Positions 23,413 through 56,543 of a DNA stretch of 64,000 nt are shown one piece after another (the first letter of the stretch is position 1; each line of letters starts with the position of its first letter). The DNA lies in NCBI RefSeq assembly GCF_003049665.1, contig NZ_PYWM01000021.1:1-64000 (forward strand), in the 5' to 3' direction. The DNA comes from Lysinibacillus mangiferihumi (GTDB taxonomy: Bacteria; Bacillota; Bacilli; Bacillales_A; Planococcaceae). The translations under genes were made by a program, and so were the position numbers. Below the pieces are notes generated by a model. That model was not told where the DNA came from. It did no database searches and saw nothing but the letters and a program-made list of their open reading frames with translations.

Positions 23413-24272
23413 GGTTCTGGTGCAAAAAATATAAACAACTGCAATTCACCTCTAAAGTAAGGGTATATTAACACTATTACTCTAAATAGGGACGTGATTA
23501 GTATGGAAAAGGAACAACTATTCAAGCGGAAACACTTTCAACCTGAAATCATTTTGTTAACAGTGAGATGGTACCTGCGGTACAACTTGAGCTTTCGTAA
23601 TTTAGTTGAGATAATGGAAGAACGTGGCTTAGCAATGGCCCACACAACCATTATGCGATGGGTTCATCAATATGGACCGGAATTAGATAAAAGAGTTCGA
23701 CGTCATCTTAAGCCAACAAATGATTCCTAGAGAGTCGATGAAACCTATATCAAAGTAAAAGGTCAATGGATGTATCTATATCGTTCGGTTGATTCAGAAG
23801 GGAATACCATAGATTTTTATTTAAGTGAATCAAGAGATAAACAAGCAGCCAAGCGCTTTTTTAAGAAGGCCTTGGCTTTTTCTTACGTTTCTAAGCCTCG
23901 AGTGATAACAGTAGACAAGAACCCAGCTTATCCCATTGCTATCCAAGAATTAAAAGAAGAAAAGCAGATACCCGAAGGCATCCAACTAAGGTAAGTTAAA
24001 TATCTCAACAATATCGTGGAGCAGGATCATCGCTTTATTAAAAAACGAATTCGCTCGATGCTTGGATTAAAGTCTATACGGACTGCCAAACGAATTATTG
24101 CTGGGATAGAGGCTATGCACATGATCAAAAAAGGACAAACTCTCCAAGGGGAGAAGTCCGTCCAAAATCAAAAGGAATTCATCCATCAACTGTTTGGGTT
24201 AGTTGCTTAGACCAGGGGTCACTGGAAATCATTCACTTTTTTATATTTTCTTCAAGTGTTTGCACCAGAACC
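23413..24272 (+). mobile_element. IS240-like IS6-family element, complete ends
   Basis: Perfect 14-bp terminal inverted repeats: GGTTCTGGTGCAAA at 23413-23426 and TTTGCACCAGAACC at 24259-24272. Total length 860 bp matches IS240-type elements. The single transposase frame carries two stops. Flanking 8-mers (CTCTATAC and AAATTATA) differ, so no target duplication remains. It forms the left border of the biosynthetic island. Confidence 0.9.
23503..24210 (+). pseudogene. IS6-family transposase with two in-frame stop codons
   Basis: One frame throughout encodes about 235 residues, the IS240 transposase length. It is interrupted by TAG at 23728-23730 and TAA at 23992-23994. The DDE residues are readable: D in RVDETYIKVKG, D in ITVDKNPAYP and E in NIVEQDHRFIKKR. 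Loss by point nonsense mutations with otherwise intact sequence suggests fairly recent inactivation. Mobilisation would need a transposase in trans. Confidence 0.9.
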
Positions 24273-24303
24273 AAATTATAACTATAAGAACGAGGTGTTA
24301 ATT

Positions 24304-25179
24304 TTGAAGTCCATAGGAGAAGAGATACGTAGAATTAGAATAGAAAAAAAAATTACACAAAAACAATTAAGTGAAGGAATATGTACTCAACCAACTATTA
24401 GTATGATTGAAAAAGGTATTATAATGCCTGGAATTGATATTTTAGTAGATATTGCAGCGAAGCTTCAAGTAACATTAGATTATTTCACAGAATTTATAAA
24501 TAATGCTGATTATGAAGATAAAAAAAGATTAATACTGAAACTAGAAGATTTAGCACTTAGACAAAAATTTGTAGATATACATAATATAGTGAAAATAGAG
24601 TTACAAAATAAAATAGAGGACAGGTGGTTAGAGGCTTATTTAAAATGGTTATATTTTTTAAGTAGATATTATATAAAAAAAGAATCTTTGGATTTGGTTA
24701 TAGGGAATATATTACAGTTAATTCGTAATGTCCCATCAAATATTTTAAATCGAGAATATTTATTATATCGTATTTATAATTCAATAGCATTTTTACATGC
24801 CATTAATAAAAATTATTCGAAGGCATTATTTTATTATAGGAAGATTGATTTTGATTCTGTAGAAGAGACCCGACTGCCTAGTAGGCAAATCTTTGAATTG
24901 AGGTTTTTGTATAATCAAGTAAAAACTCTATATGATATGGGGGAATATGGAGAAGCGATAAGACTTTCAGAGTTAGGTATAACTAAATCGATTAATTATG
25001 AAAATATGTCTTTAATTGGAAATTTTTATTATTATCTTGCACAGACACATGAAAAAACAAGTAAAAATCGAGAGTTGATAGTATATTTTTACAAAAAATC
25101 GTTATTCTTTTTTGAATTATTAAATCGTGAACTGTATGTTGAAATACTAAAAAATAAAAATATCACGTCTGTTGATTAA
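24304..25179 (+). CDS. PlcR-like quorum-sensing transcription regulator (RRNPP family)
   Basis: From TTG 24304 (CGAGGTG site) it has 291 residues; PlcR has about 285. Residues 3-62 are an XRE HTH: IGEEIRRIRIEKKITQKQLS, then STISMIEKG-like PTISMIEKG and DILVDIAAKLQVTLDYF. Residues 75-290 are helical TPR-type repeats; the ending ALIGNFYYYLAQT-like segment and KKSLFFFELLNRELYVEIL follow PlcR closely. Such regulators bind an imported C-terminal peptide (PapR in Bacillus cereus) and then activate promoters. Here it stands beside a PapR-like peptide gene and a biosynthetic operon, its likely target. The start lies only 32 bp from the IS end, so IS sequence may influence its expression. Confidence 0.85.
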   Translation: MKSIGEEIRRIRIEKKITQKQLSEGICTQPTISMIEKGIIMPGIDILVDIAAKLQVTLDYFTEFINNADYEDKKRLILKLEDLALRQKFVDIHNIVKIELQNKIEDRWLEAYLKWLYFLSRYYIKKESLDLVIGNILQLIRNVPSNILNREYLLYRIYNSIAFLHAINKNYSKALFYYRKIDFDSVEETRLPSRQIFELRFLYNQVKTLYDMGEYGEAIRLSELGITKSINYENMSLIGNFYYYLAQTHEKTSKNRELIVYFYKKSLFFFELLNRELYVEILKNKNITSVD

Positions 25180-26099: not shown

Positions 26100-26192
26100 T
26101 TATATTTCATAAGGTAAATCTAGAGGAAGGGCTATAAAATCACCTGTAATAAGAAAAGCTGCTAATAAACTTACAAATAGTAATTTTTTCAT
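26100..26192 (-). CDS. PapR-like signalling peptide precursor
   Basis: 30 codons from ATG 26192 with GAGGTG eight bases upstream. The N-terminus MKKLLFVSLLAAFLITGDF is a short Sec export signal, and the precursor ends LPLDLPYEI. PapR of the Bacillus cereus group also begins MKKLL and ends in (S/A)DLPFE(F/Y/H), whose last 5-7 residues are imported and bind PlcR. The closing DLPYEI here is a clear variant. PapR is about 48 residues; this one lacks most of the spacer. It has its own TATAAT box and terminator, and it diverges from the biosynthetic operon. Import would need a host oligopeptide permease. Confidence 0.8.
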   Translation of the reverse strand: MKKLLFVSLLAAFLITGDFIALPLDLPYEI

Positions 26193-26404
26193 TTTGTAAT
26201 CACCTCAATTATTCTGTAAATTAACATTTCTTACCCATAATTATACATATATGTTTTTTAAAAAAAATAAAATATAGGAATCCTTATATTTATTTAAGTG
26301 GAAACCCCTTTTAAAAAATAATAAAAACATCATAATTGAAAAATGTAGGTTATTTACATAATTGAAAAGTATAGGTTATTTAATATAAGCGAGGTGCTTT
26401 AAAG
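26193..26404. promoter_or_regulatory. Divergent promoter region of peptide gene and biosynthetic operon
   Basis: Leftward: TATAAT (26245-26240, minus) lies about 47 bases from the peptide start, preceded by the palindrome ACATATATGT (26245-26254); its -35 is poor, as expected for an activated promoter. Rightward: TTGAAA (26336-26341) and CATAAT (26357-26362), spacing 15, would give a leader of about 35 bases that includes the GAGGTG site of the first gene. I could not find a canonical PlcR box (TATGNANNNNTNCATA) by eye. Confidence 0.5.
26331..26382 (+). repeat. Tandem 26-bp direct repeat ahead of the operon
   Basis: Two abutting 26-bp units, 26331-26356 and 26357-26382, begin CATAATTGAAAA and end TAGGTTATTTA and differ at two positions. 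They overlap the proposed -35/-10 region, 23 bases before the first start codon. Probably regulator-binding sites. Confidence 0.8.
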
Positions 26405-27058
26405 TTGGAAGACTATAAATTTAATCATATCTTAGAGATGCTCTTTTCAGGAGAAGAGCTTACTAAGGATGAAAAAATGTGGGCAGAACAAGTAGTTGCC
26501 TTTAAAGAGGCAACTTCAGGACAAATAGGAGCTTATAAGATAGGTTCTGTCCCTGGTTTCAATATTAAAAATTCTCTAGCTTCTACCATTCCAAAGATAG
26601 AGAGATTATTAGAACAATGTCCTAATGAGGGATATGATATTAAACCTGCTCCTAATAAATGGTCCATACATCAGATTGTTGGGCATTTAGCTGATAATGA
26701 GGTTTGTAATTCAATTAGGGTTCGATGTATTTTGACCGAAGAAACGCCAGTGTTAGTGGGGTATGATTCAGATGATTGGCAAAGATGGTTTACTATAAAT
26801 GATATTTGGACCTGTTTTAATCGGTTTAAACAAGAGCGTTTAAATTTAATAGCTTTACTAGAAACCTTACAAGAAAAAGAATGGGAAAGAATGGGGTTTT
26901 TAGATTATAGAGGCAATGAACAATTGCGTGTATTGTTAGGCGTGCTAGCAGGTCATGATGAAAATCATATAGGACAGTTAACTAGAACACTTCGGTATGT
27001 GGAAGAAAATCTAGCTATTATCAATAGTAATAAAAGTTGTACTAACAAAGGGAGTTGA
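26405..27058 (+). CDS. DinB-family protein, first gene of the biosynthetic operon
   Basis: 217 residues from TTG 26405 (GAGGTG, eight bases upstream). After about 55 residues it has the DinB four-helix pattern: PAPNKWSIHQIVGHLADNEV with the first metal His, and LLGVLAGHDENHIGQLTRTL with the other two. DinB proteins bind a divalent metal and include bacillithiol- or mycothiol-dependent transferases. It may open or conjugate a reactive intermediate, or give self-protection (inference). It overlaps the next gene's region by a few bases. Confidence 0.75.
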   Translation: MEDYKFNHILEMLFSGEELTKDEKMWAEQVVAFKEATSGQIGAYKIGSVPGFNIKNSLASTIPKIERLLEQCPNEGYDIKPAPNKWSIHQIVGHLADNEVCNSIRVRCILTEETPVLVGYDSDDWQRWFTINDIWTCFNRFKQERLNLIALLETLQEKEWERMGFLDYRGNEQLRVLLGVLAGHDENHIGQLTRTLRYVEENLAIINSNKSCTNKGS

Positions 27059-27063
27059 TATAT

Positions 27064-28269
27064 TTGACTTATTTACAACTTAAAGAAGAAATTATAGATA
27101 ATGATCTTTGTACTAGTTGTGGGGCATGTGTAGCTGTTTGCCCTGCTAATATAATCCAATTAAATAAAAATAGTATACCTAATGTTTACTTAGATTCTAA
27201 ATCTTTATCGGAGGTTTGTGGATCATGTAATCTTTGTAGAGATATATGTCCAGGTAAAGAAACAGATGTACCTGCATCTGAGTTATCACTGTTTGGACGT
27301 ACAAGAACATCTACTGAACGTTGGACAGGAATTATAAATGAAACTAATTTAGTTTCAGTTGTAGATCCCAATGTACGTAATCATGCTACTGCTGGTGGAG
27401 CCGTAACTGGTTTATTAATTACCGCACTACGTTCTGGGTTAATTGATGCAGCACTAGTTATTGATCGTGATAAAGAGAAACCTTGGATTCCCCAAGCAAT
27501 ATTGACTAATGACGAAGAAACTATAATTAAATGTGCCCAATCCACATATTGTATAGCCCCAAATTTACATCTATTAAATGATACAAGATATGAAAGTGTA
27601 GGTGTAGTGGGCTTAGCTTGTGAAATCCAGGCTATCAGGAAAATGCAGAGGAATCCGGAAACAGAGGCCTTAGGGAAAAAAATTGTATTTTCAATTGAGA
27701 TAGGGTGTTCATCTAATACTAAATTATCTGGGACAGAACATCTTATAACTGATATTTTGAACATTCCTTTAGATGAGGTTTCTGATGTTAGATATCGTGA
27801 TGGAGACTACCCAGGAGAGTTTACCGTATATACTAAAAATAATGAGTCGAATTCATTACCTTTTTTTGAATTAGTTGAAGAATTCAAAAAATTCAAAACA
27901 TTCAGGTGTTTATCTTGTAGGGACTGGTGGTCTGGAGTTGCTGATATATCTGTTTCAGATGGAGATCCTAATATATATGCGTCTAGTCAGTATGGTATTC
28001 TTCCAAGTAGATTTTCAATGGTTGCAACTAGAACAGAAATTGGACAGAGATTACTTGAACTAGGAATATTAATGGGAATCTTGGTAGCAGAACCAACAAA
28101 ATTTGATCCAGAAGAAAGTTTAGGTTTACAGAGAAAAAGATTCCGTAGTGCAAGTTATAAAAGAAAATATCCTAATGGAGTACCAGATTCTTCTGTATTG
28201 TTTAATGATAATGATGGTGAAAGGGAAGACGATGAAGTAATTGCGAAGATGTCTAACCGTATTACTTAA
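27064..28269 (+). CDS. FrhB/FdhB-type iron-sulfur flavoprotein
   Basis: 401 residues from TTG 27064 (nine bases after GGGAG; TTG 27055 sits too close). Two 4Fe-4S motifs come first: C16-x2-C19-x2-C22-x3-CP and C52-x2-C55-x2-C58-x3-CP. Then follow the FrhB N-domain and the C-domain with FRCLSCRDWW and VADISVSDGDP. The family holds F420 hydrogenase beta subunits and ferredoxin-dependent reductases such as BciB-type chlorophyllide vinyl reductase. In this operon a reduction of a C=C bond or removal of a hydroxyl from a cyclic precursor is plausible, but the substrate is unknown. Confidence 0.8.
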   Translation: MTYLQLKEEIIDNDLCTSCGACVAVCPANIIQLNKNSIPNVYLDSKSLSEVCGSCNLCRDICPGKETDVPASELSLFGRTRTSTERWTGIINETNLVSVVDPNVRNHATAGGAVTGLLITALRSGLIDAALVIDRDKEKPWIPQAILTNDEETIIKCAQSTYCIAPNLHLLNDTRYESVGVVGLACEIQAIRKMQRNPETEALGKKIVFSIEIGCSSNTKLSGTEHLITDILNIPLDEVSDVRYRDGDYPGEFTVYTKNNESNSLPFFELVEEFKKFKTFRCLSCRDWWSGVADISVSDGDPNIYASSQYGILPSRFSMVATRTEIGQRLLELGILMGILVAEPTKFDPEESLGLQRKRFRSASYKRKYPNGVPDSSVLFNDNDGEREDDEVIAKMSNRIT

Positions 28270-28304
28270 TACTCAGATTTTATTATGAAGAAGGAATGAT
28301 TTTT

Positions 28305-29675
28305 TTGGAGTTGAATAAAATTACAGTTTCCCCGATTAAAGAATCAAGTAAAAGCATTTATTGGCATCCCCCAGGAGATAAGTCTATTAGTCAACGTGCT
28401 ACTTTTTTAGCTAGTTTAGCAGAAGGAACTAGTCGAATATCAGATATATTGTGGTCAGAAGATACAGTAAATAATTTAATCGCCCTTAAGAAATTGGGGG
28501 TAGGTATAGAAATTGATAATAATGATGTTTTGGTGACTGGTGTAGGTAAATTTGGTTATAGAGCATCAAATAATACTGTTTATTTAGGGAATTCTGCTAC
28601 GTCATCTCGTATTATGATTTCACTACTTAGTGCTCAAAAGGGGAGATTTAAGGTTGATGGCAATAAAATGTTACGTAATCGCCCTATGGAATGGGTTGTA
28701 GAACCTTTAAAGGATATGGGGGCGCAAATTGAGTGGTTGAATAATTATGGATGTCTCCCTGTGGGAATTACTGGGTCTAGACTAGATGGGATGCATCATC
28801 GAATTAAGGTGTCTAGTGCACAAGCGGTATCTGCATTACTTTACGCAGCGTTATTGGCAGATAAGAAGACTCGTATTTATAAAAAGACTAAAGCAAGAGA
28901 TCATACAGAACGAATTTTTAAATATTTTGACCTTGATTTGATAGATACAGGAGATTATCTTGAGTTAACTCCTCCTGAAAAAATATTACCACATGATATC
29001 TTTGTACCAGGTGACATATCGTCAGCGGCATTTCTCATTGGTTTAGTGGCTATGCAAAAATCATCGGGTTTAGAGTTAACAGTAAAAAAAGTTAATCTTA
29101 ATCCAACACGAACAGGATTCTTAGAAATTCTTCAGAGGATGGGAGCAGATTTAACTATAATAAATCAAGGTGAATTATGCGGAGAGCCGATAGGAGAAGT
29201 AATTATCCGTTCGGGAAGTGAGCTTTCGGGTGTAAAAGTTTCAGGTGATGTGTTTGTACAGAGCATGATAGATGAAATACCTATACTTGCTGCAGTTGCA
29301 GCTACAGCTAAAGGTGAAACTGTAATTACAGATGCATTTGAATTAGCTAATAAAGATACTAATCGTATTATAACAACTATTGAATTACTAAATAACTTTG
29401 GCATAGAAGCTTATCCTATTGAGGGGGGATTAGTAGTTACACCAGGAGAATTTACTAGCCCAGGGAACTTAGAAGTACCTAATGATCATAGAATATCAAT
29501 GGTCGCTATGATTATTGCAAGCTTTTGTAATAAAAAAACAGAAATTTATAATTGGGATACTGTTCGTGTTTCTTTTCCAGGTTTTTTAGAGGCTTTCAAT
29601 CTTATAGGATTAGCTTCAACAGATGATGATTCAAGTTCATTAGGTCCTAGTATTTATATGGAGATGGTGGAGTGA
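28305..29675 (+). CDS. EPSP-synthase-fold enzyme (AroA-like) of the operon
   Basis: From TTG 28305 (AAGAAGGA at good spacing) it has 456 residues, slightly longer than the usual 430. It keeps most EPSP synthase sites: HPPGDKSISQR (Lys26), LGNSATSSR (94-102), RNRPM (124-128), SSAQ (170-173), GDISSAAFLIG, the catalytic Asp in MIDEIPILAA, and DHRISM near the end. The usual RVKESDR is replaced by ANKDTNR, so the Glu is Asp. The family transfers enolpyruvate from PEP to shikimate-3-phosphate. No other shikimate genes are here, so either a modified substrate is used or it is a resistant copy of the target. Confidence 0.85.
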   Translation: MELNKITVSPIKESSKSIYWHPPGDKSISQRATFLASLAEGTSRISDILWSEDTVNNLIALKKLGVGIEIDNNDVLVTGVGKFGYRASNNTVYLGNSATSSRIMISLLSAQKGRFKVDGNKMLRNRPMEWVVEPLKDMGAQIEWLNNYGCLPVGITGSRLDGMHHRIKVSSAQAVSALLYAALLADKKTRIYKKTKARDHTERIFKYFDLDLIDTGDYLELTPPEKILPHDIFVPGDISSAAFLIGLVAMQKSSGLELTVKKVNLNPTRTGFLEILQRMGADLTIINQGELCGEPIGEVIIRSGSELSGVKVSGDVFVQSMIDEIPILAAVAATAKGETVITDAFELANKDTNRIITTIELLNNFGIEAYPIEGGLVVTPGEFTSPGNLEVPNDHRISMVAMIIASFCNKKTEIYNWDTVRVSFPGFLEAFNLIGLASTDDDSSSLGPSIYMEMVE

Positions 29676-30424
29676 TGAAAAAAACAGTTGTAATTTTAGG
29701 GGGAGCAGGGTTTATTGGAAGAAGTATAGCAAAGTGTTTTGGGAAAGATGGATATTCTATAAGTTTATTAGACAAGGACGAAGAAGCATTAAATTCTGCT
29801 ACAACGTTTTTACGAGATCTTGGAATAGAATGTTATCCGAAAAAGGTAGACGCTCTTAATGAAAAACAATTAAAACAAGAAGCAAATAATTTGTTTGAGG
29901 AATTTGGATCTATAGCAGTTTTAGTTAGTGCAATAGGCTATTCACCAAAATTAAATGGAAAACGGCCAAATACTTTAGATATACAAGGTGAAGAGTGGAG
30001 ATTAGTAATGGATATTAATCTAAATGCAGTATATTACGGCATTTCAGCTTTTCTACCGAAAATGTTGGCAAGTAAAGGTGGACGCATAGTTATTATTTCT
30101 TCTGTGGCTGGCTTGGCTGGCTCTTTAACGGCGGGAATACATTATTGTGCAGCGAAATCAGCTTTAGTTGGATTGACAAAATCATTAGCTACAGAATTTG
30201 CATCTGAGGGTATATTAGTGAATTCTGTAGCCCCAGGAAAAATAGAAAATTCTGACTGGGGGGATGATTCATATGAGATAGAAAAATATACAAGTACGGT
30301 TCCTTTAGGACGACTTGCGAAAGTAGAAGAAGTATCGGAAGTCATAAAGTTCTTAGGGAGTGAAAAAAATACTTATATAACCGGAAAAGTTGTAACTATA
30401 GATGGTGGACGGACCCCTATCTAA
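29675..30424 (+). CDS. Short-chain dehydrogenase/reductase
   Basis: 249-250 residues, the classic SDR length. NAD(P)-binding loop ILGGAGFIGRSIA; acidic residue D after strand 2 (LLDKDEEAL) suggests NAD(H). Catalytic Ser in IVIISSVAGLAG, then Tyr and Lys in HYCAAKSALVG. The C-terminal ITGKVVTIDGG is typical. ATG 29675 overlaps the stop of the previous gene, so it is coupled. It likely oxidises or reduces a ring hydroxyl/ketone, as BacC does in bacilysin biosynthesis (analogy). Confidence 0.88.
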   Translation: MKKTVVILGGAGFIGRSIAKCFGKDGYSISLLDKDEEALNSATTFLRDLGIECYPKKVDALNEKQLKQEANNLFEEFGSIAVLVSAIGYSPKLNGKRPNTLDIQGEEWRLVMDINLNAVYYGISAFLPKMLASKGGRIVIISSVAGLAGSLTAGIHYCAAKSALVGLTKSLATEFASEGILVNSVAPGKIENSDWGDDSYEIEKYTSTVPLGRLAKVEEVSEVIKFLGSEKNTYITGKVVTIDGGRTPI

Positions 30425-30446
30425 ATAAATAGGAGATGATTGTAGT

Positions 30447-31202
30447 TTGATAAATAATAAAAGTTTATTAAATATTCCGTGGGTAGATTTAAATTCAAAC
30501 CAACCAGATTTTATGATTATTGCAACGGGAAGTATTGAACAACACGGACCACATTTACCTCTTGGCGCTGATTTTTTTGTAGCCAATAGGATTGCTCAAG
30601 AAATTACAAAGCGCTATTCTGCTGTACAGCTACCTTTTACATCAGTAGGTGTAAATTTTATGTTTGAAGATTGGCCGGGTACGATTAGTATTTCAGCAGA
30701 AACGTACACTAATTTAATTATTGAAATTGGAGAAAAGGCTAGGAGAATTTGTCAACGAATTTTGATAATTAATGGGCATGATGAGAATCAACCGTCCCTA
30801 ATAACAGCCTCTCAACGATTAGTTAAGGAATATGGAATGGAAGTAGTAGTCCTTGAATGGGCAGAGTTTGTTCTCGATATCCTTCGAAATATTTGCGAAT
30901 CTAAGTATGAAATGCATGCAGGTGAAGGGCTGACATCGATTTTCCTCCATTGGTTTCCTGAAATGGTAATAAAAGAAAATATTGAAAAAGGTGCTTCTGT
31001 TATTGGTGGTATAATCTCGGATGATATTCATCTTGATCATAGAGCATATAACCCACAAATAATAAGTAAAAATAATGGAAGTACAGGTGTATTTGGAGAT
31101 CCTACTATAGCTAATGAAGATAAAGGCTCAAAAATAGCAGAAGCTTTAATAAAGCGTGTTAATGAATTAATAGAAGAATTAAATTGGGGGACAGCTAAGT
31201 GA
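30447..31202 (+). CDS. Creatininase-family amidohydrolase
   Basis: 251 residues from TTG 30447 (AGGAGATG). All metal-binding signatures of the creatininase/MftE/ArfB superfamily are present: GSIEQHGPHLPLGAD (residues 28-42), IINGHDEN (about 107-114) and MHAGEGLTS (about 154-162). These are Zn/Mn enzymes that hydrolyse amide or lactam bonds. In cofactor pathways they trim peptides (MftE) or deformylate (ArfB). Here it may open a lactam or release a protected amine. Its last four bases overlap the aminotransferase start. Confidence 0.85.
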   Translation: MINNKSLLNIPWVDLNSNQPDFMIIATGSIEQHGPHLPLGADFFVANRIAQEITKRYSAVQLPFTSVGVNFMFEDWPGTISISAETYTNLIIEIGEKARRICQRILIINGHDENQPSLITASQRLVKEYGMEVVVLEWAEFVLDILRNICESKYEMHAGEGLTSIFLHWFPEMVIKENIEKGASVIGGIISDDIHLDHRAYNPQIISKNNGSTGVFGDPTIANEDKGSKIAEALIKRVNELIEELNWGTAK

Positions 31203-32524
31203 CAAAAAAGAAAATTATAGATATTGTTTCAAATTTAGAATCCCCTTCCACATCTGAAATAATTTCTAATGATACTAAATTAGATTGGGAGAAAGGTTTA
31301 AATTTTTGCGTATGGACTGAAGAAGGGACAGAATATATAGATTTGACCGCTGGGTCAGGGGTACATAATGTGGGATATAATAATTCAAAGGTTAATGAAG
31401 AAATTATCAAACAACTTCAATCTCTTTCTCATACAGGGTGGCAATTTCCTACTCGTTCTCGAGCGACACTTTTGGAAAAGTTATGCAATATACTTCCTTT
31501 TAAAAATCCAAAATTTATATTTACTGTTACTGGATCTGAGGCGGTAGAGGCTGCATTAAAATTGTCGCGCCTTGTCAAGGGAAAATCGGCCGTATTGAGC
31601 TTTCAAGGTGGATTTCATGGTAAAACAGGTGGTTCCCTAGCTGTAACTGCAAATCCGAAGCTACGTGACAAAGTTACAAATTATGCTGCTGATATTATTC
31701 GCCTACCTTTTCCGGAAGATGATGCTTTACGCAGACATGGTTATAATGTGCCTTCTGTGGATGAATATCTAAAGTGGATTAAGCGCTTTATTTTGCATCC
31801 AGATTTCCCACTAGATCAAGTTGCAGGCATTATAGTGGAACCGATACAAGGCTCTTCTGGAATGACTGCTGCTCCACCTAATTTTCTTAAAGCACTTAGA
31901 AAATTAACAAGCGATGAAGATATGTTATTAATAATGGATGAAATATATACAGGTTTTGGTAGAACAGGGAAAATGTTCGGTTTCCAACATGATGATATTA
32001 TTCCGGATATCGTAATAATGGGAAAATCGTTAGGTGGAGGGTTACCTATTTCTGTAGTAGCAGCCCCTTCTGATCTAATGAATAAAATGCCGGCATATAA
32101 ACAAACTAGTACATTTTCAGGTCATCCAGTAGCATGTGCAGCTGGTTCTAAAGTTCTTGAAATAATAGTAGATGATAATCTTTCACAGAATGCTTTAGAA
32201 AGAGGAGAACAATTTAGGGAAAGGTTAGAAGAAATAAATACTCTGCTTTTGAAGGAAAGCAAAATTCACTTTGTTGTTACAGGTAAAGGGCTAATGTTGG
32301 GGCTTCATATTGAAGCAGATACATCTGCTGATTCTGAGAGAATTGCTAGAGTTCTAAACGATTGCCTAAAAGAACAATTCGTCATTTGTTTATTAGGAGG
32401 CACTTTTAATAATGTTATTAAAATTACCCCACCACTTACTTTAACTCCTGATGATGTAGATATGATCTGCGATCGTTTTATTTTAGCTGTTAAGAAAATG
32501 CTTTACCTTGAGTCAATTTCGTAA
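31199..32524 (+). CDS. Class III PLP aminotransferase
   Basis: 441 residues from GTG 31199, in a GTGA overlap with the previous stop. The fold-type I signature is clear: TGSEAVEAALKLSR, SFQGGFHGKTGGSLA, LLIMDEIYTGFGRTG, and VIMGKSLGGGLP with PLP Lys276. The class includes ornithine, 4-aminobutyrate and diaminobutyrate aminotransferases that act on omega or ring ketones. Probably installs the amino group on the product made by the preceding SDR or enolpyruvyl enzyme. Confidence 0.9.
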   Translation: MTKKKIIDIVSNLESPSTSEIISNDTKLDWEKGLNFCVWTEEGTEYIDLTAGSGVHNVGYNNSKVNEEIIKQLQSLSHTGWQFPTRSRATLLEKLCNILPFKNPKFIFTVTGSEAVEAALKLSRLVKGKSAVLSFQGGFHGKTGGSLAVTANPKLRDKVTNYAADIIRLPFPEDDALRRHGYNVPSVDEYLKWIKRFILHPDFPLDQVAGIIVEPIQGSSGMTAAPPNFLKALRKLTSDEDMLLIMDEIYTGFGRTGKMFGFQHDDIIPDIVIMGKSLGGGLPISVVAAPSDLMNKMPAYKQTSTFSGHPVACAAGSKVLEIIVDDNLSQNALERGEQFRERLEEINTLLLKESKIHFVVTGKGLMLGLHIEADTSADSERIARVLNDCLKEQFVICLLGGTFNNVIKITPPLTLTPDDVDMICDRFILAVKKMLYLESIS

Positions 32525-32542
32525 AGGAAAAGAGGCTAATTT

Positions 32543-33367
32543 ATGAGTAGTTTCTGGATGGCACGTGTATTTTATAACGAAGGTATTTCAGGAAATCTAA
32601 CAGGAGTTGTTCAGTTAGAAAAGGATATAGGAGATATTGCCAGTAAAAAAATGGCTACTAGATTACAGTTGCCAGATACAGCATTTATTTGGAAAGAAAA
32701 TTCAATGAAACATAGAACATATTCTCCATATGAAGAGTTGGAATTTTGTACGCAGACTTTGCTAGCTACGGGAGCAGTACAAAAAATACAATCTAAAAAT
32801 CTCGAACGTTTCGAATTTGAAGGAGCTACAGGATTAATCTCTGTATTCACACAAGGGGATGACATTTGGTGGATTGAACAAACTCCTGGCGAGATTTCAC
32901 CTTATTATAATTATGACGTTTTGAATGAGTTAAGTATATCTAAAAATATATTAGGTGGAATGCTTGGGGTTGGAGGTAATGGTCGAAAGAGACTTTATAT
33001 TCCGATAAACTCGGAGGAAAATCTGTATATTGTTCACTTGAAACCTTCTTTAGTTATGAATATATGCCAACGTATGGGTATAAATGGAATTGTTTTATTT
33101 GTGAAAAAGGACCAATCAAATGTTTTATTAAGGGTATTCACTACGTCATTAGCAGGCAATGAAGATGCTGCCACGGGTGGTGCAGCATTAGGCCTGTTGG
33201 GATATAATCAACTTTTTTCTTTTGGTCTATCTAATAACATACGAGTAGATCAAGGGCATATAGATTCTTCAAGTAGAGGGTGTATCTACCTGAAAAATGA
33301 TGTTGAGAATAACCAAAATTTAATAGGTTCTAAGGTGGATGTACTAATAGAAGGATTAATTTTATAA
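32543..33367 (+). CDS. PhzF-family isomerase-like protein
   Basis: 274 residues; PhzF proteins have 260-300. Two-domain diaminopimelate-epimerase-like fold: GNLTGVVQL, LPDTAFIW, and YSPYEELEFC with the catalytic Glu64 at the right place; in the second half EDAATGGAALGLLG. The normally invariant GHAT after CxxC-type Cys is TQTL. PhzF moves double bonds and protonates in phenazine synthesis from a chorismate-derived diene. A related isomerisation on a cyclohexadienyl intermediate is possible. Confidence 0.8.
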   Translation: MSSFWMARVFYNEGISGNLTGVVQLEKDIGDIASKKMATRLQLPDTAFIWKENSMKHRTYSPYEELEFCTQTLLATGAVQKIQSKNLERFEFEGATGLISVFTQGDDIWWIEQTPGEISPYYNYDVLNELSISKNILGGMLGVGGNGRKRLYIPINSEENLYIVHLKPSLVMNICQRMGINGIVLFVKKDQSNVLLRVFTTSLAGNEDAATGGAALGLLGYNQLFSFGLSNNIRVDQGHIDSSSRGCIYLKNDVENNQNLIGSKVDVLIEGLIL

Positions 33368-33390
33368 AATCTAACGTGAAAGGAAAATAG

Positions 33391-34695
33391 ATGGAGAATA
33401 GAAAAAATGATGAATTATTAATAAAATTAGAATCATTTATATCAAAAAAAATAGAAATAAACGGATTTATAGGTAGAAGCTATAAGAGAATCAGAGAAAT
33501 CTCCTCTGTTGATTTGAAAAAGATGTTTCCAGAACAATTTTGGTCTTCTATTCAATGGTTGTCTTATATAGAAAACACATTAGATACACATTTATTATAC
33601 CTTGTAATCGAAGATGAGAATAATAATTTGATGGGAATAATTCCTTGCCAGATTGTCACAGATTCTAAAGGATTATTGTTTTATAATCTTCCACGTAGTT
33701 TCACTAAAGGAGGAAACTTTGGAAATTTAGATTTTTTGAATTTACAACAGCTGCAAGCATTAAAGGAGTATCAAATAAAGTTAGAAAATGAAAATTTATA
33801 TCCTTCTTTAATAGCTGCCATACCTAATTCATATTGTGGTATTTTAATTAATCCTGATATCGCAACTAACGAAAGGAAAAGTGTTTTAAAGGCTTTAATG
33901 TATTTCTTTAACATTTTAGCCGAACATATTGACAGTAAAATTCATGGATTGTGTTATATACCTGAACATATATATGGTGATATTAATGAACACCTCCCAG
34001 AAGGATATTGTAAATTGACTGTAGGAGCTGATTCAGTTTTATCAATCCCTTGGTTATCATTTGATGAATACTTAATGAATTTTAACGATAAGAGAAGGAA
34101 TAAAATTAGAAGGGAAATAAAGGAGTTTAAAAGTTCTGGATTAAAAGTTGAGGTTTTATGTGGAGCGCAAGCACTTTCTGAAGATTTAATTAAATTGCAA
34201 TTATCATTACGTTCTAAATATGGTCATGGAGGCGATCCTGAAAAATTAAGCAAAAGCTTTCAGATTATGAAAGACTATTTGGACGATAGTATTGTAGTAT
34301 TTAATGCCATACTTAAAGATGAAATTGTAGGATTTGTTCTATTTTTTAGACAAGATAATAAAATGTATGCTCACTTATCAGGATTTGATTACGAAAAGTT
34401 AGTTAATGCGTTTTGCTATCCTAATTTGTGTTTTTATGAACCCATAAAATACGCGATAAATGAGGGAATTAATCAAATCTATTATGGATTATCTTCTTAT
34501 GAAGCAAAAGTAAGACGAGGTTGTGAATTAGTAGAGTTAGGTGCATATATATCTTTTAATACTAAAATAAGGAATAATGCTATATTGGAGGAAATTTCAG
34601 AGCTTTTATCTTTTAGTGAAAAACAACAACTAAATCACTTTCACGAAATGGTTTCTAAACCCAAAAATACAAAAATAGGTAGGTATTATTTATGA
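33391..34695 (+). CDS. FemAB/GNAT-like aminoacyl transferase
   Basis: 434 residues. The C-terminal half has the 'FemAB-like' GNAT pattern: LQLSLRSKYGHGGDPEKLSK, FLFFRQDNKMYAHLSGFDYE-type strands, and IYYGLSSYEAKVRRGCELVE, characteristic of PF04339-type proteins. Relatives transfer amino acids from aminoacyl-tRNA to a peptide or amine, or acylate. In a peptide pathway it could add one residue from a charged tRNA, complementing the ATP-grasp ligases. Its end overlaps the next start (ATGA). Confidence 0.65.
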   Translation: MENRKNDELLIKLESFISKKIEINGFIGRSYKRIREISSVDLKKMFPEQFWSSIQWLSYIENTLDTHLLYLVIEDENNNLMGIIPCQIVTDSKGLLFYNLPRSFTKGGNFGNLDFLNLQQLQALKEYQIKLENENLYPSLIAAIPNSYCGILINPDIATNERKSVLKALMYFFNILAEHIDSKIHGLCYIPEHIYGDINEHLPEGYCKLTVGADSVLSIPWLSFDEYLMNFNDKRRNKIRREIKEFKSSGLKVEVLCGAQALSEDLIKLQLSLRSKYGHGGDPEKLSKSFQIMKDYLDDSIVVFNAILKDEIVGFVLFFRQDNKMYAHLSGFDYEKLVNAFCYPNLCFYEPIKYAINEGINQIYYGLSSYEAKVRRGCELVELGAYISFNTKIRNNAILEEISELLSFSEKQQLNHFHEMVSKPKNTKIGRYYL

Positions 34696-35966
34696 GAAAT
34701 ACTCGTAATCGCCTTTTAATAGTCGATGCACCTGGAGGTCCTGCACCATCTGTATATTTGCCCATGCTTTCAGATGAGTTTGAAGTAGGGGTAGCCTTGG
34801 TTGTATCTGAAAATTCAGTTGTTTTAGAAGAAAGATTAAACTTTTTGGGAGAAAGAGTGCAAGTATATATAATTGAAAATCGTTTAAATCTTAAAGAAGA
34901 ACTTGAAGAAATTTCTAATTTATTTAATGCAGAAGGGTTGCTCGCTTTTAGTGAAAGAATTGTTCATGATGTAAATGAAGTAGCTAGAAAATTAAATTTG
35001 CCATCAAATCCCACCTGGGTTCAAAAATGTTTATATAATAAGGAGCACCAGCGTACTGCTTTATCTCATGGCGGATTGGTTATTCCAAAAGTATATAAAA
35101 TATTAGATTATCCAGACTTGAAAGCTGCAGCAAAAGAGGTTGGATTTCCAGCAGTATTAAAGCCATTAATCGGAATTGGTAGTTTATCTACTTATGAAGT
35201 TCAATCAATAGAAGAATTAGAAGAAATTTATTATACAGCAATAGATTTATATAAAACTGATGCTCGTATACAAGCCGTACCTAATTTTTTATTGGAAGAA
35301 AAGATACCCGGGTTTAATTGGCATGGTGATGACCGTTATGGAGATCATGTTAGCGTTGAATCTATAGTGTCAAATGGAGAGATAGTACATCTAACTGTTA
35401 CTGATAAATTACCATTAGCATTTCCTTTTCGTGAAACGGGTGACATTATGCCGACTATTTTATCTGATTTTCAAGTTGAAAATTTATATAAGGAAGCAGA
35501 GCTTGCTATCCGTGCGCTTGGTATAGAAGTCGGGGCTGTACATACTGAAATTAAATTGACAAAAGAGGGTCCTAGAATAATAGAGGTCAATGGCCGTGTT
35601 GGCGGTGGAATTACAGAGATGTTATCTTATTCTGCTGACTATAATATTATAAATGAATTAGCTAAAGTTGCTGTTGGTATGCCTCTTTCAAAGAAAAAGC
35701 CAGATTTTAAATCATATTGTGGATTTTTCACTCCTCAGCCTCCAGCATTAGACATTGAATTAGAGAAAGTGCCTAATCTGGATGAATTATTGGCTATGGA
35801 AAGTGTAAGAGAGGCTGTGATAGTGTATTCAGTTGGAATGAAACCTGATTGGAAAATTGGTACGGGAAGTAATTTACTTAGAGTATTAGCAGTTTCAGAT
35901 AATAAAGAAGAAATTTTAGCACTAGGTACTAGACTAATAAATCTTAGCTTATTTAGCTTTAAGTAA
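34692..35966 (+). CDS. ATP-grasp ligase 1
   Basis: 424 residues, ATGA-coupled to the previous gene. Layout of a biotin-carboxylase-like ATP-grasp enzyme: an N-terminal Rossmann-like domain, FPAVLKPLIGIGSLSTYEVQ (nucleotide Lys and Gly-rich loop), FLLEEKIPG, then HTEIKLTKEGPRIIEVNGRV with the Mg-binding Glu and Asn. Such enzymes (BacD/YwfE) form dipeptides from free amino acids via acyl phosphates. Probable peptide-bond-forming ligase of the pathway. Confidence 0.88.
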   Translation: MRNTRNRLLIVDAPGGPAPSVYLPMLSDEFEVGVALVVSENSVVLEERLNFLGERVQVYIIENRLNLKEELEEISNLFNAEGLLAFSERIVHDVNEVARKLNLPSNPTWVQKCLYNKEHQRTALSHGGLVIPKVYKILDYPDLKAAAKEVGFPAVLKPLIGIGSLSTYEVQSIEELEEIYYTAIDLYKTDARIQAVPNFLLEEKIPGFNWHGDDRYGDHVSVESIVSNGEIVHLTVTDKLPLAFPFRETGDIMPTILSDFQVENLYKEAELAIRALGIEVGAVHTEIKLTKEGPRIIEVNGRVGGGITEMLSYSADYNIINELAKVAVGMPLSKKKPDFKSYCGFFTPQPPALDIELEKVPNLDELLAMESVREAVIVYSVGMKPDWKIGTGSNLLRVLAVSDNKEEILALGTRLINLSLFSFK

Positions 35967-35997
35967 TAAATAATTTATTATAGAAAGGTTGAAAGAA

Positions 35998-37545
35998 ATG
36001 GATAAAAAGAATGCAATAAGTGTATTTATGGGTGAGCCAACTTCCATCGATCCTTGTTATGGATCCGAACATGATGGTGCATTAGTATTACGATTTTTGA
36101 GCGATCCATTAATAGATTTCACTCCCGATACCGGAGAAGCTAAACCAGCGGCGGCTAAATCATGGCAAGTAGAGGATGATGGATATACTATACGTTTATT
36201 TTTACGTGAAAATGTTTTCTTTCATCATGGTAGAAATGTTACTGCTGAAGATTATATTTATTCATGGAATCGATTAGTAAGCCCTTCTCAAAATTCAGAA
36301 CTTTCGTATCATTTAAGCAGTATAAAAGGGTTTGATGAAGTTCGTTCCGGTATATCAAATCAAATGAGTGGTTTGAAAGCAATAGGAACATTTGAGTTAT
36401 TAGTGTCTATGAGTGAACCTTTTGCGGAAGTTCCGGCCCTTTTTGGACACCATTGTATAGCTGCTGTACCTAAAGAGTTAGTCGAATCAAATCCTGAGAA
36501 ATTTAAAGATAATGTTATTTCTACAGGCCCATATATGTTGGCTGAACCTTGGGCACATAATAAATATGTTCGTTTAAAACGTTTTGATAAGTATTATGAA
36601 GGTAATGAAGCATTTATAGATGGGGGAAAGGGATATTTAGATGAAATAGAATTCCGTATTTACGAGGATATTAATGATGCATATTCAGATTGGAAGGAAG
36701 GAAAATTAGATATTACCAAAGTACCGCCTACATGTTTGAATGAAGCAATGTCTTATGGAGATAATTTCCGTAGTACTCAATGTGCATTAATGCAATATAT
36801 TGGATTTCCTAATAATATCCCTCCTTTTAATAATAAATTAGTTAGACAAGCAATAGCATTGGGAACGAAACGTAAAAATATAATTGACAAGGTGTTTTCT
36901 GGTACTCGTCCTTTAGCAACTAGTATAATTCCACCAAATATAAAATCTAATCACGAAGAAGATATTAATAATAATGAAAATATTTTACTTTGTGAGCCAG
37001 ATGTGGATAAAGCTCTTAATTTACTTGAACAGGCGGGTATGAAGCTACCTTTAAAAGTTCCTTTTTATTATAACTCTGGTTTAGGACATGAATCATGGAT
37101 TAATGAGATAAAACAGCAGCTCGCACAAATAAAAATCGAACTTGATTTAAAACCTTTACCTTGGGGAGGATTTTTAAATAAACTTCAAAATGGGATAGAT
37201 GGTATGTTTAGAATGACCTGGGCAATTGATTGTCCAAGTCCGGATAATGTATTATTTTCTCTATTTCATTCAAATTCTATTGGTATGGACAATTTTTCTA
37301 ATTTCTCTGATGTTAAATTTGATGCTACTTTAAAAGAGGCACGTTCAATTCTCGACACTGAACAACGAATGTTAAAATATCAAGAAGCCGAGAATATAAT
37401 TATTAATCAATTACCTATTTTGCCGTTATGGTACGGAATACAGTATCACATGGTTTCTTTAAACCGCTTTGAATTTTTAGGGAATCGAGTTATTGATATT
37501 TTTGGCGAACCTGTTTTACGCCATGTAAAAATGAGGATTGATTAA
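35998..37545 (+). CDS. OppA/DppA-like substrate-binding protein without a signal peptide
   Basis: 515 residues from ATG 35998 (GAAAGG, nine bases upstream). The body is a full SBP_bac_5 protein: EPTSIDPCYGSEHDGALVLR, GEAKPAAAKSWQVEDDGYTI, FHHGRNVTAEDYIYSWNRL, and GMFRMTWAIDCPSPDNVLFS. It starts directly with the mature fold (DKKNAISVFMGEPTS) and has no signal peptide or lipobox. No permease or ATPase genes are near. A cytoplasmic peptide binder, carrier or recruited enzyme is implied. Its place between two ligases suggests a part in assembly or immunity. Confidence 0.8.
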   Translation: MDKKNAISVFMGEPTSIDPCYGSEHDGALVLRFLSDPLIDFTPDTGEAKPAAAKSWQVEDDGYTIRLFLRENVFFHHGRNVTAEDYIYSWNRLVSPSQNSELSYHLSSIKGFDEVRSGISNQMSGLKAIGTFELLVSMSEPFAEVPALFGHHCIAAVPKELVESNPEKFKDNVISTGPYMLAEPWAHNKYVRLKRFDKYYEGNEAFIDGGKGYLDEIEFRIYEDINDAYSDWKEGKLDITKVPPTCLNEAMSYGDNFRSTQCALMQYIGFPNNIPPFNNKLVRQAIALGTKRKNIIDKVFSGTRPLATSIIPPNIKSNHEEDINNNENILLCEPDVDKALNLLEQAGMKLPLKVPFYYNSGLGHESWINEIKQQLAQIKIELDLKPLPWGGFLNKLQNGIDGMFRMTWAIDCPSPDNVLFSLFHSNSIGMDNFSNFSDVKFDATLKEARSILDTEQRMLKYQEAENIIINQLPILPLWYGIQYHMVSLNRFEFLGNRVIDIFGEPVLRHVKMRID

Positions 37546-37579
37546 TCAAAATTTAACTCTAAAGGGGGATCTATTCATA

Positions 37580-38860
37580 ATGAATCGTAATGAAAAATCA
37601 AGTGAACCATTATTTGGGGATTGTAAGCATGTTTTAATTATTGGAGGGGGTTCTGACCTTGTTCCTATGCTACGTAATGTAGATAAAAATATTAGAACTT
37701 CCGTTTTTTGCCGGCCTTCTATACTAAATTTTGTTTATGAAATTGAAAAAAATAATACGGTTTTAATAATCAAAGAAGAAGCAAGTATACAAGAATGGAT
37801 AGAATATGCTAGGTCCCTTCACAAGGTTGATCCTTTTGATTCAGTTGTTTCTTTTGCAGAAATCGATCAAGATAAAGCAGCAGCCATAAGTGAATCATTA
37901 GGGTTAAATTATCATAGTGTTTCCACAGTTGAATGGGTTCACAATAAGTTTCAAATGCGAAATCGTTTACGGATGACAGGGGTAGAAGATATCCCTAATA
38001 AATTGGTTATCTATGCTGAAGAAATAAATGAATTTGGAAATAAATATGGATACCCATTAATTGTTAAGCCTAGTAAAGGACGTGCTAGTGTTGGAGTTTC
38101 AATAATTCAAGAATCAGAAGAAATTTTTGAGAAAATGGATTATTCAATCAAAAGTAAAATTCCTCGATTAGAGCAATCTTCATTGATAGTAGAACCTTAT
38201 TTAAAAGGTAAGGAATATAGTGTAGAGGCAATTTCTGAAAATGGGCAACATTTAATACTTGCAATTGTCGAAAAATATAAACATGAGCTTAATAAAGTGG
38301 AAATAGGTCATATGGTACCAGCTGAATTAGATTTAAACACTTATAAGGAAATTGAGAATCATATTATTAAGGTATTAGATGCATTAGAAATTAAATTTGG
38401 GGTAACTCATACTGAGATTATGTTAACGGATAAGGGACCTCGTGTTATTGAAACGCATGTTAGATTAGCTGGAGATGATATTCCTTTGTTAATTAAAGAT
38501 TCGTTAGGCGTTGATATGATGAAATATATTGTGGAACAGGCGGCGGGTTACTCTATTTATGATAGATTAAAACAGGAGATTGAAAAGGGAAAGAAAACTC
38601 AAAAAGGCGCAGCAATATGGTTTATTAACACAGAATTAGAAGGCAAATTATGTGGTATAGAAAATATTGACCAAATAACTAAAACTGTAGGAGTTGTTGA
38701 ATTTATACCGTCTTATGAAATTGGTATGTATCTAGAAGGTCTTAAGAGCTCATATTCTCGATTAGGTTCAATTCGTACTACTGCCGAAACTCCTGTAAAA
38801 GCTATAAATTTAGCAAAAGACTTAGCAGATAAAGTGAAGATATCTATAAGTAATAAATAA
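37580..38860 (+). CDS. ATP-grasp ligase 2
   Basis: 426 residues from ATG 37580 (GGGGG, 11 bases upstream). Similar layout to ligase 1 but diverged: YPLIVKPSKGRASVGVSIIQ, LIVEPYLKGKEYSVEAIS, FGVTHTEIMLTDKGPRVIET, and then RLAGDDIPLL. Two ATP-grasp enzymes in one operon fit a product with two amide bonds, or one ligase for a dipeptide and one for a protective or tailoring amide. Confidence 0.88.
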   Translation: MNRNEKSSEPLFGDCKHVLIIGGGSDLVPMLRNVDKNIRTSVFCRPSILNFVYEIEKNNTVLIIKEEASIQEWIEYARSLHKVDPFDSVVSFAEIDQDKAAAISESLGLNYHSVSTVEWVHNKFQMRNRLRMTGVEDIPNKLVIYAEEINEFGNKYGYPLIVKPSKGRASVGVSIIQESEEIFEKMDYSIKSKIPRLEQSSLIVEPYLKGKEYSVEAISENGQHLILAIVEKYKHELNKVEIGHMVPAELDLNTYKEIENHIIKVLDALEIKFGVTHTEIMLTDKGPRVIETHVRLAGDDIPLLIKDSLGVDMMKYIVEQAAGYSIYDRLKQEIEKGKKTQKGAAIWFINTELEGKLCGIENIDQITKTVGVVEFIPSYEIGMYLEGLKSSYSRLGSIRTTAETPVKAINLAKDLADKVKISISNK

Positions 38861-38896
38861 TTAGAGGCACCATTGTAATTAATAGGAGGATACCCG

Positions 38897-40168
38897 ATGG
38901 CGTTAACGCGCTTTATATTACAACACATAGATAGAAAATCTAAATACTTATTATTAAATGTGCTATTCACTAATATAGGACTTAGCGGTCTTACTTTGCT
39001 GACTGGTATTCTAATATATGATATAACAGGTTCATTAATGGCATTTGCCTTTACGCTGGTTTCCGGGTTTATTATAGATTTAGCTGGACAATTCTTTGCT
39101 GGGGGAATTCTTGATCGTATAAATCCAAATAAGGTTTCTATTATTATTAATCTTTCTAGGGGATTGCTAATAATTATAGCAGGTCTTATTGTTATAATAA
39201 TGGGTAGTGTTACAAGTGTAATATTTCTTTCTTTATTTATGTCGTTAGTGGGACCTGCGTATCGTGCAAGCGTCTTTGCAATTTCACCATTACTGGTAAA
39301 TCAGAAGTTTCTCAGCCAATTCAATGCATTTCGTGTAGGAGTTATGCAAGTTGGCCAGTTAATAGGATTAGGTCTAGCAACCCTTGTTTTGGCATTAACT
39401 AATCAGGAAATAGCTTTTACTTCTATTGCGATATGGTTTTTATTGGGGGCACTTATGATGATTCTTCTAGGAGATTTACCGCTTAAGAATAAAGTATTAT
39501 TAAATAGGGTATTCAGTATAAAAAATACCTTATTAGAATGGAAAGAGTTATTTTTGGCATTTAAAGTAGCTCCAAGTATATATTTCCATATATTAATATC
39601 CAGTAGTGGATTATTAATTGCCTCTATATTTAGTTTATTAATTGTTCCATTAAATGAATTTTTTCAAGGAAAAGAAATTGGATATTTAATATTAGATGGT
39701 GGATTTACAGTAGGGGCTATTCTTGCATCACTAATTCTTTCCAAATTAAGTAATTTAAATAGTTATACTTATATAGTTGTTAATGTTTGTTTGTTAGTGT
39801 CTACAGTTTCGATTTTTATATTAGGTTATGGTAATATAATTCTTGCTGGATTGTTGATGTTTGTTATAGGTATATCAACTACAAGTTTAATGATATGTTT
39901 AGATAGCTCCCTACAAATACGAGTAGGAAATAAATTTCTTGGCAGAACGGCTTTATTTCAAGATATGTTTATGTCACTAATTTCTATAATATTTGTACCT
40001 ATTATTGCTAATACAATGGAGAGACAAGGAATCCAAACAGCCTTAAATTTCTCTTCGCTAGTATTATTAATATATCTTATTATAACTGTTTTTTTAGGTT
40101 CTAATATAATTTTTGGCAAACAAATGTTTAAAAAACCTATAAAAAATAATATAACTATTGAACCTTAG
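38897..40168 (+). CDS. MFS transporter, likely product exporter
   Basis: 423 residues with about 12 membrane segments. The MFS loop 2-3 motif is recognisable as GGILDRINPNKVSIIINLSR. The type resembles MFS_3/BacE-like drug exporters. Last gene of the operon, 36 bases after ligase 2, with RBS AGGAGG. Probably expels the product and gives self-resistance (inference from position). No terminator hairpin is obvious before the IS fragment. Confidence 0.88.
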   Translation: MALTRFILQHIDRKSKYLLLNVLFTNIGLSGLTLLTGILIYDITGSLMAFAFTLVSGFIIDLAGQFFAGGILDRINPNKVSIIINLSRGLLIIIAGLIVIIMGSVTSVIFLSLFMSLVGPAYRASVFAISPLLVNQKFLSQFNAFRVGVMQVGQLIGLGLATLVLALTNQEIAFTSIAIWFLLGALMMILLGDLPLKNKVLLNRVFSIKNTLLEWKELFLAFKVAPSIYFHILISSSGLLIASIFSLLIVPLNEFFQGKEIGYLILDGGFTVGAILASLILSKLSNLNSYTYIVVNVCLLVSTVSIFILGYGNIILAGLLMFVIGISTTSLMICLDSSLQIRVGNKFLGRTALFQDMFMSLISIIFVPIIANTMERQGIQTALNFSSLVLLIYLIITVFLGSNIIFGKQMFKKPIKNNITIEP

Positions 40169-56488: not shown

Positions 56489-56514
56489 TAACTACATCTA
56501 GGACGTGTTTTTTG
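56471..56514 (+). terminator. Terminator ahead of the VirD4-like gene
   Basis: AACACGT...ATGTAGT pairs with ACTACAT...ACGTGTT, followed by TTTTT. It sits between the small peptide gene and the coupling protein RBS. Confidence 0.65.
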
Positions 56515-56543
56515 TTGGAATTTTAAAGAAAGGAGAAAGGACG

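Follow-up and report, generated by a model that had tools for sequence, protein, structure and literature searches.

What does the twelve-gene operon at positions 26,405 to 40,168 of this stretch of Lysinibacillus mangiferihumi DNA (64,000 nucleotides, hereafter the window) make, and from which precursor? A first-pass annotation had described twelve same-strand genes with overlaps or short gaps (here A to L; Table 1), and had proposed that they build a non-proteinogenic amino acid from a shikimate- or chorismate-like precursor and couple it into a small peptide. Open reading frame (ORF) calls recovered all twelve genes on the plus strand exactly where they had been placed, and the Pfam and NCBIfam profile matches by which we assigned families bore out the families named. 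Consecutive genes are spaced by -4, 26, -4, 22, -4, 18, 23, -4, 22, -8, and 36 nt, i.e., they overlap by 4 or 8 nt or are separated by gaps of 18-36 nt. Our preferred reading, to which we give about even chances, is that a plasmid-borne operon draws on the shikimate pathway and yields an amino-carbocycle that is built from shikimate-3-phosphate and linked to further amino acids. Three features taken up below were absent from the first-pass annotation: a PlcR/PapR-like pair, a plasmid context, and a module composed of an FrhB-type reductase (B) and an EPSP synthase (EPSPS)-like enzyme (C).

The operon is a real, selected unit, yet it is rare. A second genome of the same genus (G022) contains the complete operon in identical order, with 54-75% identity per protein. 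All twelve G022 frames are open with zero internal stops; a TAG near the FrhB gene precedes the start codon of that gene and so is not internal. Between the window and G022, nonsynonymous distance (dN) is 0.17-0.34 in 12 of 12 genes and synonymous distance (dS) is 1.5-4.0 in 10 of 12 genes, with dS saturated and not computable for genes A and E; dN/dS is 0.06-0.19 in the genes with computable dS. Gene B was found at E<=1e-40 in 2 of 32 genomes of the genus (G000, which is the genome of the window, and G022), and these two are also the only ones among 261 genomes of the order with gene J at E<=1e-110. Because this rare co-conservation is intact at near-saturated synonymous distance, we conclude that the operon is under selection as a whole set. 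The G022 operon has 41% GC and is located on a 320-kb contig. In searches of a plasmid collection, the operon stretch matched only IS6-transposase fragments (12 records), B reached ~30% identity at best (19 records), C stayed below 60% identity among the matches listed (best 15 of 68 records), and the right flank of the operon gave short matching stretches in 27 records.

Genes B and C recur as a pair in Paenibacillus. Searching genome contigs with B gave four Paenibacillus loci, all four with an EPSPS-like gene directly after the FrhB gene, and an EPSPS profile search of 100 genomes of the P. jilunlii genus returned eight loci, all with an FrhB gene directly upstream. Two loci are common to both sets, leaving ten Paenibacillus loci; together with the window and G022, FrhB and EPSPS are direct neighbours in all 12 loci of the subfamily, and their frames overlap in 9 of the 10 Paenibacillus loci. 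Elsewhere in the phylum, 18 FrhB loci that are less similar to B (28-35% identity) were inspected over flanks of ~1.5 kb, and none of the 18 had an EPSPS match there. Besides the operon of the window and G022, the pair occurs in two Paenibacillus-type settings, where gene families at most loci were assigned by clustering, which makes three dissimilar gene neighbourhoods in all. Eight loci make up the main Paenibacillus type, with MFS, LacI, two DUF1611 proteins, a GH13 amylase (7/8), a small protein, GT4, FrhB, and EPSPS, and L018 is a short form with MFS, two DUF1611 proteins, FrhB, and EPSPS. In L021, the pair follows a class-III aminotransferase, an alcohol dehydrogenase, and two ABC transporters.

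Protein B has the N- and C-terminal FrhB domains of F420-type flavin Fe-S reductases. Its cysteines C19/22/25/29, C55/58/61/65, and C189/C218/C285/C288 are invariant in 17 of 17 aligned sequences, among them five from the 18 less similar loci, and HCAR (5dqr) is an FrhB-type relative among solved structures. Bacillota are not known to use F420, and ferredoxin is the more likely partner of B.

The EPSPS proteins of the pair are distinguished by two active-site changes (E. coli numbering). All 12 have Ala at Gly96 and Asp at Glu341, and their motif is KDT[ND]R instead of the KETDR of the host AroA, whereas none of 12 unpaired EPSPS (8 from the same genomes and 4 more of the class) has this signature, all having Gly and Glu. 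The equivalents of Lys22, Ser23, Arg27, Asn94, Thr97, Arg100, Arg124, Ser169, Gln171, Asp313, Lys340, Arg344, Asp384, His385, and Arg386 are kept in the paired proteins, where the first three positions are blank in the L065 frame, which starts after the N-terminus. C thus differs from the AroA site pattern at Gly96 and Glu341, and its remaining positions agree with host AroA except at the variable Lys411 site. In a 20-row tree, for which the program warned of long branches, the paired EPSPS form one group (support 97/94). Two MurA-type rows (L002, a wrong-frame ORF, and L004) were aligned but excluded from counts and tree, and G747, which has the same coordinates as G597, was counted once. Because the 12 paired EPSPS group together and share two active-site changes that none of 12 unpaired proteins has, the pair resembles a portable module of enzymes rather than a spare AroA.

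Four class genomes with strong EPSPS matches (E 9.7e-131 to 6.1e-135) were set aside as encoding ordinary AroA (GNSGT/KETDR, no FrhB in the flanks examined). The genome of the window also encodes a third EPSPS-like paralogue (L066:8210-11364, on contig G000:C65), in which Lys340 is replaced by His; the next genes, in overlapping frames, encode first a 383-aa protein with weak similarity to PEPCK and then a methyltransferase, in DNA of 34% GC. A relative of this paralogue (L073) lies in a Paenibacillus metagenome-assembled genome that also carries the FrhB-EPSPS pair.

A link to the shikimate pathway is also visible in the gene content of G022. DAHP (3-deoxy-D-arabino-heptulosonate 7-phosphate) synthase is the entry enzyme of that pathway. 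Of the 32 genomes of the genus, 31 have one copy; only G022 has two, the second being a chorismate mutase-DAHP synthase directly after the MFS gene of the operon (L023:2196-3275). A shikimate-type precursor is therefore supported, on the strength of one operon-bearing genome of two, since G000 lacks a second copy.

The remaining genes are consistent with a natural-product operon. Against the NCBIfam model NF009807 (YfiT bacillithiol transferase), A scores 53.5 bits, under the cut-off of 160; A is also related to the YfiT structure 1rxq (1.1e-9) and is 65% identical to its G022 copy, and the host genome carries the bacillithiol gene bshC (gene presence only). E contains the creatininase motifs EQHGPH and NGHDEN (1q3k, E 4.7e-11). 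G departs from the catalytic residues of PhzF isomerases, Glu45 and His74: in an alignment to 4dun and 1s7j, DT replaces ET and CTQ replaces CGH, in the window as well as in G022. H has no solved-structure relative at E<=0.1. Ligases I and K both belong to the ATP-grasp L-amino acid ligase superfamily, with LAL_C2 in K only; the nearest solved relatives of I are BacD structures, and that of K is the L-amino acid ligase BL00235 (3vot, 1.9e-17). The OppA-like protein J had been called cytoplasmic, which agrees with the absence of any signal-peptide-like stretch in the window or G022 protein (5 and 7 in-frame codons, respectively, before the start) and with a best 12-aa hydropathy of 1.51 versus 2.47 and 2.80 in two exported-type control ORFs.

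The pathway that we propose would begin with host shikimate-3-phosphate or a close analogue, whose supply the linked DAHP synthase would boost in G022. C, which keeps the substrate-site residues and appears remodelled on the phosphoenolpyruvate side, would act on this compound, and B, with flavin adenine dinucleotide and Fe-S clusters, would reduce the product at once. Dehydrogenase D would then oxidize a ring hydroxyl, aminotransferase F would aminate the ring, and PhzF-like G would shift a double bond to give the amino-carbocycle. Ring oxidation and amination are favoured because a dehydrogenase and a class-III aminotransferase accompany the pair in L021 as well as in the operon of the window. 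Ligases I and K with FemAB-like H would join amino acids to the amino-carbocycle, and the metal hydrolase E would trim an amide. Finally, L would export the product, J may bind the product or a peptide in the cytosol, and A may handle thiol adducts. If this is true, the pair opens a new way out of the shikimate pathway, through an EPSPS clade with a changed catalytic residue that is always FrhB-coupled in the loci seen. The pattern GN[ST]ATS[SA]R with KDT[ND]R beside FrhB could then serve as a mining mark for small molecules that are missed by nonribosomal peptide synthetase and polyketide synthase rules. Moreover, the operon is self-contained and comes with its own transporter and a candidate for the inducing peptide, which puts its product within reach of direct experiment.

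Several observations weigh against this reading. The extra DAHP synthase is present in one of the two operon-bearing genomes, G000 having a single copy, and neither a shikimate kinase nor a chorismate synthase is among the twelve genes. C passes the NCBI AroA model TIGR01356 (322.2 versus a cut-off of 287.25 bits), the only NCBIfam model passed at its cut-off by any of the twelve proteins among the matches listed, and ordinary EPSP synthesis by C is therefore possible. Without the usual His, G may be no isomerase. The main Paenibacillus type combines the pair with DUF1611 proteins, GT4, and often an amylase, not with ligases, so that a peptide cannot be deduced from the pair by itself. The PlcR-like regulator upstream of the operon (see below) has no match in G022 at E<=1e-15, so that PlcR-like control belongs to the plasmid rather than to the core operon. 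Finally, both the product and every step are what we infer from the genes.

Other explanations must be weighed on the same evidence. EPSP synthase is the target of glyphosate, and the product of the operon, or its Paenibacillus counterparts, might inhibit EPSP synthase while a G96A-type C sustains aromatic synthesis as a self-resistance copy. This role, or that of a spare AroA, is a real rival because G96A is known from glyphosate work as a change to low glyphosate sensitivity, and because C exceeds the AroA cut-off; C also keeps the shikimate-3-phosphate residues, and papers name G96A together with EPSPS and glyphosate. However, the catalytic Glu341 is also replaced by Asp in 12 of 12 proteins, resistance would not require the constant position of C beside B, with overlapping frames in most Paenibacillus loci and in three unlike settings, and the linked DAHP synthase fits supply better than defence. 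E341D and the strict FrhB coupling speak for a new reaction, and we regard self-resistance as quite unlikely. We find it very improbable that the operon serves nutrient use, with the OppA-like, creatininase-like, aminotransferase, and MFS proteins degrading an imported amide or peptide. SBP_bac_5, creatininase, and class-III aminotransferase proteins are common in catabolic operons, and L may transport in either direction, but J has no signal peptide, two ATP-consuming ligases, an EPSPS, and a linked DAHP synthase indicate synthesis, and the best NCBIfam match of L is an H+ antiporter model, albeit under its cut-off (TIGR00900, 1.4e-14, 54 versus 319.6 bits).

A further possibility concerns what C and B would do together. 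In peptidoglycan synthesis, MurA transfers an enolpyruvyl group that MurB reduces to a lactyl ether, and MurC adds an amino acid to UDP-MurNAc. By this logic, C would add enolpyruvyl to a shikimate-type alcohol, B would reduce it to a lactyl ether, and the ligases would extend the carboxylate. We consider this unlikely as it stands. C does belong to the MurA/AroA enolpyruvyl-transferase superfamily, its partner is a flavin/Fe-S reductase, and amino acid ligases and a FemAB-like transferase follow; however, C is of the AroA type, B matches FrhB families with Fe-S clusters and not MurB, and the ligases are ATP-grasp rather than Mur enzymes. FrhB relatives such as HCAR and BciB act on conjugated rings or hydroxymethyl groups, which makes a reductive ring step equally likely. 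In its boldest form, which we hold tentatively and think rather doubtful, the proposal would have C and B convert shikimate-3-phosphate as consecutive enzymes, by a reaction new to biology that is either MurA/MurB-like or a reductive elimination and that feeds at least three unrelated small-molecule pathways in Bacillota. In this operon it would build a peptide of pseudo-muropeptide-like or amino-carbocycle type, which a conjugative plasmid would spread and a pheromone would control.

Returning to the amino-carbocycle reading, we compared the operon with described pathways. Bacilysin, which the first-pass annotation had invoked, starts from a shikimate-pathway precursor and is under cell-density control (PMC9147277). 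The bacABCDEFG system and the operon share these two traits as well as a short-chain dehydrogenase, an aminotransferase, an ATP-grasp ligase, and an exporter. In contrast to bacilysin, the operon has an EPSPS and FrhB instead of the BacA decarboxylase and BacB cupin, a class-III aminotransferase, two ligases, and extra creatininase, PhzF, FemAB, OppA, and DinB genes. None of the twelve proteins matched the BacA or BacB families (Pfam, and NCBIfam among the matches listed), and I and K (77.9 and 65.9 bits versus a cut-off of 850) are not BacD equivalents and show superfamily kinship only, such that the bacilysin comparison holds only as an analogy. The first-pass proposal is partly supported. 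Its natural-product type of operon with a link to the shikimate pathway gained from the shikimate-3-phosphate-site residues of C and the DAHP synthase of G022. The suggested peptide coupling gained from the closeness of the ligases to L-amino acid ligases and BacD among solved structures, with the peptide itself still what we infer from them.

Some clusters, such as those for phenazines (phzC), contain their own DAHP synthase, which feeds a chorismate or shikimate product (PMC8772962). A dedicated DAHP synthase and the PhzF fold are shared with these clusters, but no other phz-type gene was seen among the twelve, the DAHP synthase is linked in G022 only, and G lacks the usual His. Elsewhere, an EPSPS homologue is used outside aromatic synthesis in the cyclohexanecarboxyl-CoA pathway (ansatrienin/asukamycin). 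That pathway differs, by description rather than by sequence comparison, in that no CoA ligase or acyl-CoA dehydrogenase is among the twelve. L-amino-acid-ligase pathways are already a known kind. As the first-pass annotation had maintained, no described pathway with this enzyme set was found, nor was the FrhB-EPSPS module, among the papers listed in our searches of the open PMC literature.

Table 1. Genes of the operon (A to L) and features upstream of it, in window coordinates.
Feature	Position	Strand	Match or mark
A: DinB/YfiT-like, bacillithiol S-transferase superfamily	26405..27058	+	PF12867 (DinB_2) 5.5e-14
B: FrhB-type flavin/Fe-S reductase, two N-terminal ferredoxin Cys4 motifs	27055..28269	+	PF04432/PF04422
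C: EPSPS-like enzyme, G96A + E341D signature	28296..29675	+	PF00275 (EPSP_synthase) 2.7e-85
D: short-chain dehydrogenase (SDR)	29672..30424	+	PF13561 2.2e-47
E: creatininase-family metal amidohydrolase	30447..31202	+	PF02633 3.8e-46
F: class-III aminotransferase	31199..32524	+	PF00202 1.1e-90
G: PhzF-fold protein, altered catalytic positions	32543..33367	+	PF02567 (PhzC-PhzF) 1.6e-16
H: FemAB/GNAT-like aminoacyl- or acyltransferase	33391..34695	+	PF04339 (FemAB_like) 1.5e-17, PF13480 (Acetyltransf_6) 3e-8
I: ATP-grasp (ATP-grasp_4), L-amino-acid-ligase-like	34692..35966	+	BacD structures 8e-21
J: OppA-like binding protein without signal peptide	35989..37545	+	PF00496 (SBP_bac_5) 1.2e-71
K: ATP-grasp L-amino acid ligase with LAL_C2	37538..38860	+	PF13535 (ATP-grasp_4) 8.7e-22, PF18603 1.4e-11
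L: MFS transporter (MFS_1), taken as exporter	38897..40168	+	PF07690 1e-12
PlcR-like RNPP regulator (HTH + TPR), candidate controller	24256..25179	+	PF18768 RNPP_C 4.6e-33; PlcR structure 2qfc E 2e-32
PapR-like signalling peptide gene (30 aa), C-terminus LDLPYEI	26100..26192	-	ORF in gap before operon
Two tandem 26-bp repeats, possible regulator site	26331..26382	+	92% identical copies, spacing 26

Upstream of the operon, gene content suggests a PlcR-PapR type of control, since a regulator of the PlcR fold has a PapR-like peptide gene in its neighbourhood. The peptide gene has a Shine-Dalgarno sequence and encodes a basic N-terminal end followed by a hydrophobic stretch, and a terminator-like hairpin (26061-26023) follows it. 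Small frames of this kind number 13 across the window. PapR7 of B. cereus is ADLPFEF (PMC6568020). The pair shares with PlcR-PapR a PlcR-like protein and a short peptide of exported type with the C-terminus xDLP[YF]Ex; it differs in that the peptide gene lies ~0.9 kb from the regulator gene in convergent orientation and in the lack of a PlcR-box signal above chance. Probably, the regulator and its own exported peptide time expression by cell density in this strain. The tandem repeats end 22 bp before the first operon start codon, and no further copy was found in the window (<=6 mismatches). Loose matches to the PlcR-box pattern numbered 80 in the window versus a mean of 69.9 in shuffles, and sigma-70 promoter matches numbered 79 versus 83.2 expected; we accepted neither as a signal.

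PlcR-like regulators were found at E<=1e-15 in 5 of 32 genomes of the genus, including G000, and the best match in another genome is 46% identical (G025), where no cognate peptide was found beside the regulator (L077). In G020, a peptide ending in LDLPYEA lies beside an RNPP remnant of a similar regulator (L078), and longer peptides ending in IPDLPSQH lie beside PlcR-like genes in G023 and G029. These genes and remnants (L078, L079, L080), with exported-type peptide genes nearby, are perhaps members of a pheromone circuit family in the genus.

The contig that carries the window is most likely a plasmid. Its 97,776 bp begin and end with an identical 404-bp sequence (404/404), and it is therefore most likely a circle of ~97.4 kb. 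Among its larger ORFs, to which protein-family scans were applied, are a MobL relaxase, a type IV secretion system coupling protein (T4SS-DNA_transf, 56505-58754), a topoisomerase, and a primase (window, L089, L090). With circular ends, relaxase, and coupling protein together, the plasmid is probably conjugative and transferable. The GC content of the operon is 33%, versus 39-40% at the host loci L001, L002, L004, and L067. Remnants of transposases lie around the regulator and the operon, at 23494-24210 and 25291-25736, which are transposase-like by eye only, at 40301-40445, which matches IS6 transposases, and at 40612-41571, which has an rve domain. An NlpC/P60-glucosaminidase and an S-layer-homology protein are also encoded on the contig.

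The Paenibacillus loci with two DUF1611 proteins, GT4, and in 7 of 8 the GH13 amylase (L019, L020, L060-L065) possibly make a carbocycle-sugar product. The amylase was checked against Pfam and for a signal peptide in L020, where it has CBM20 and no signal peptide, and it is in pieces in L060. On the plasmid itself, two identical 53-codon frames (50105-50266 and 50394-50555, 289 bp start to start) begin with TTG, have strong ribosome-binding sites, and encode a stretch of high hydrophobicity; their product is possibly a pilin-like or secretion subunit.

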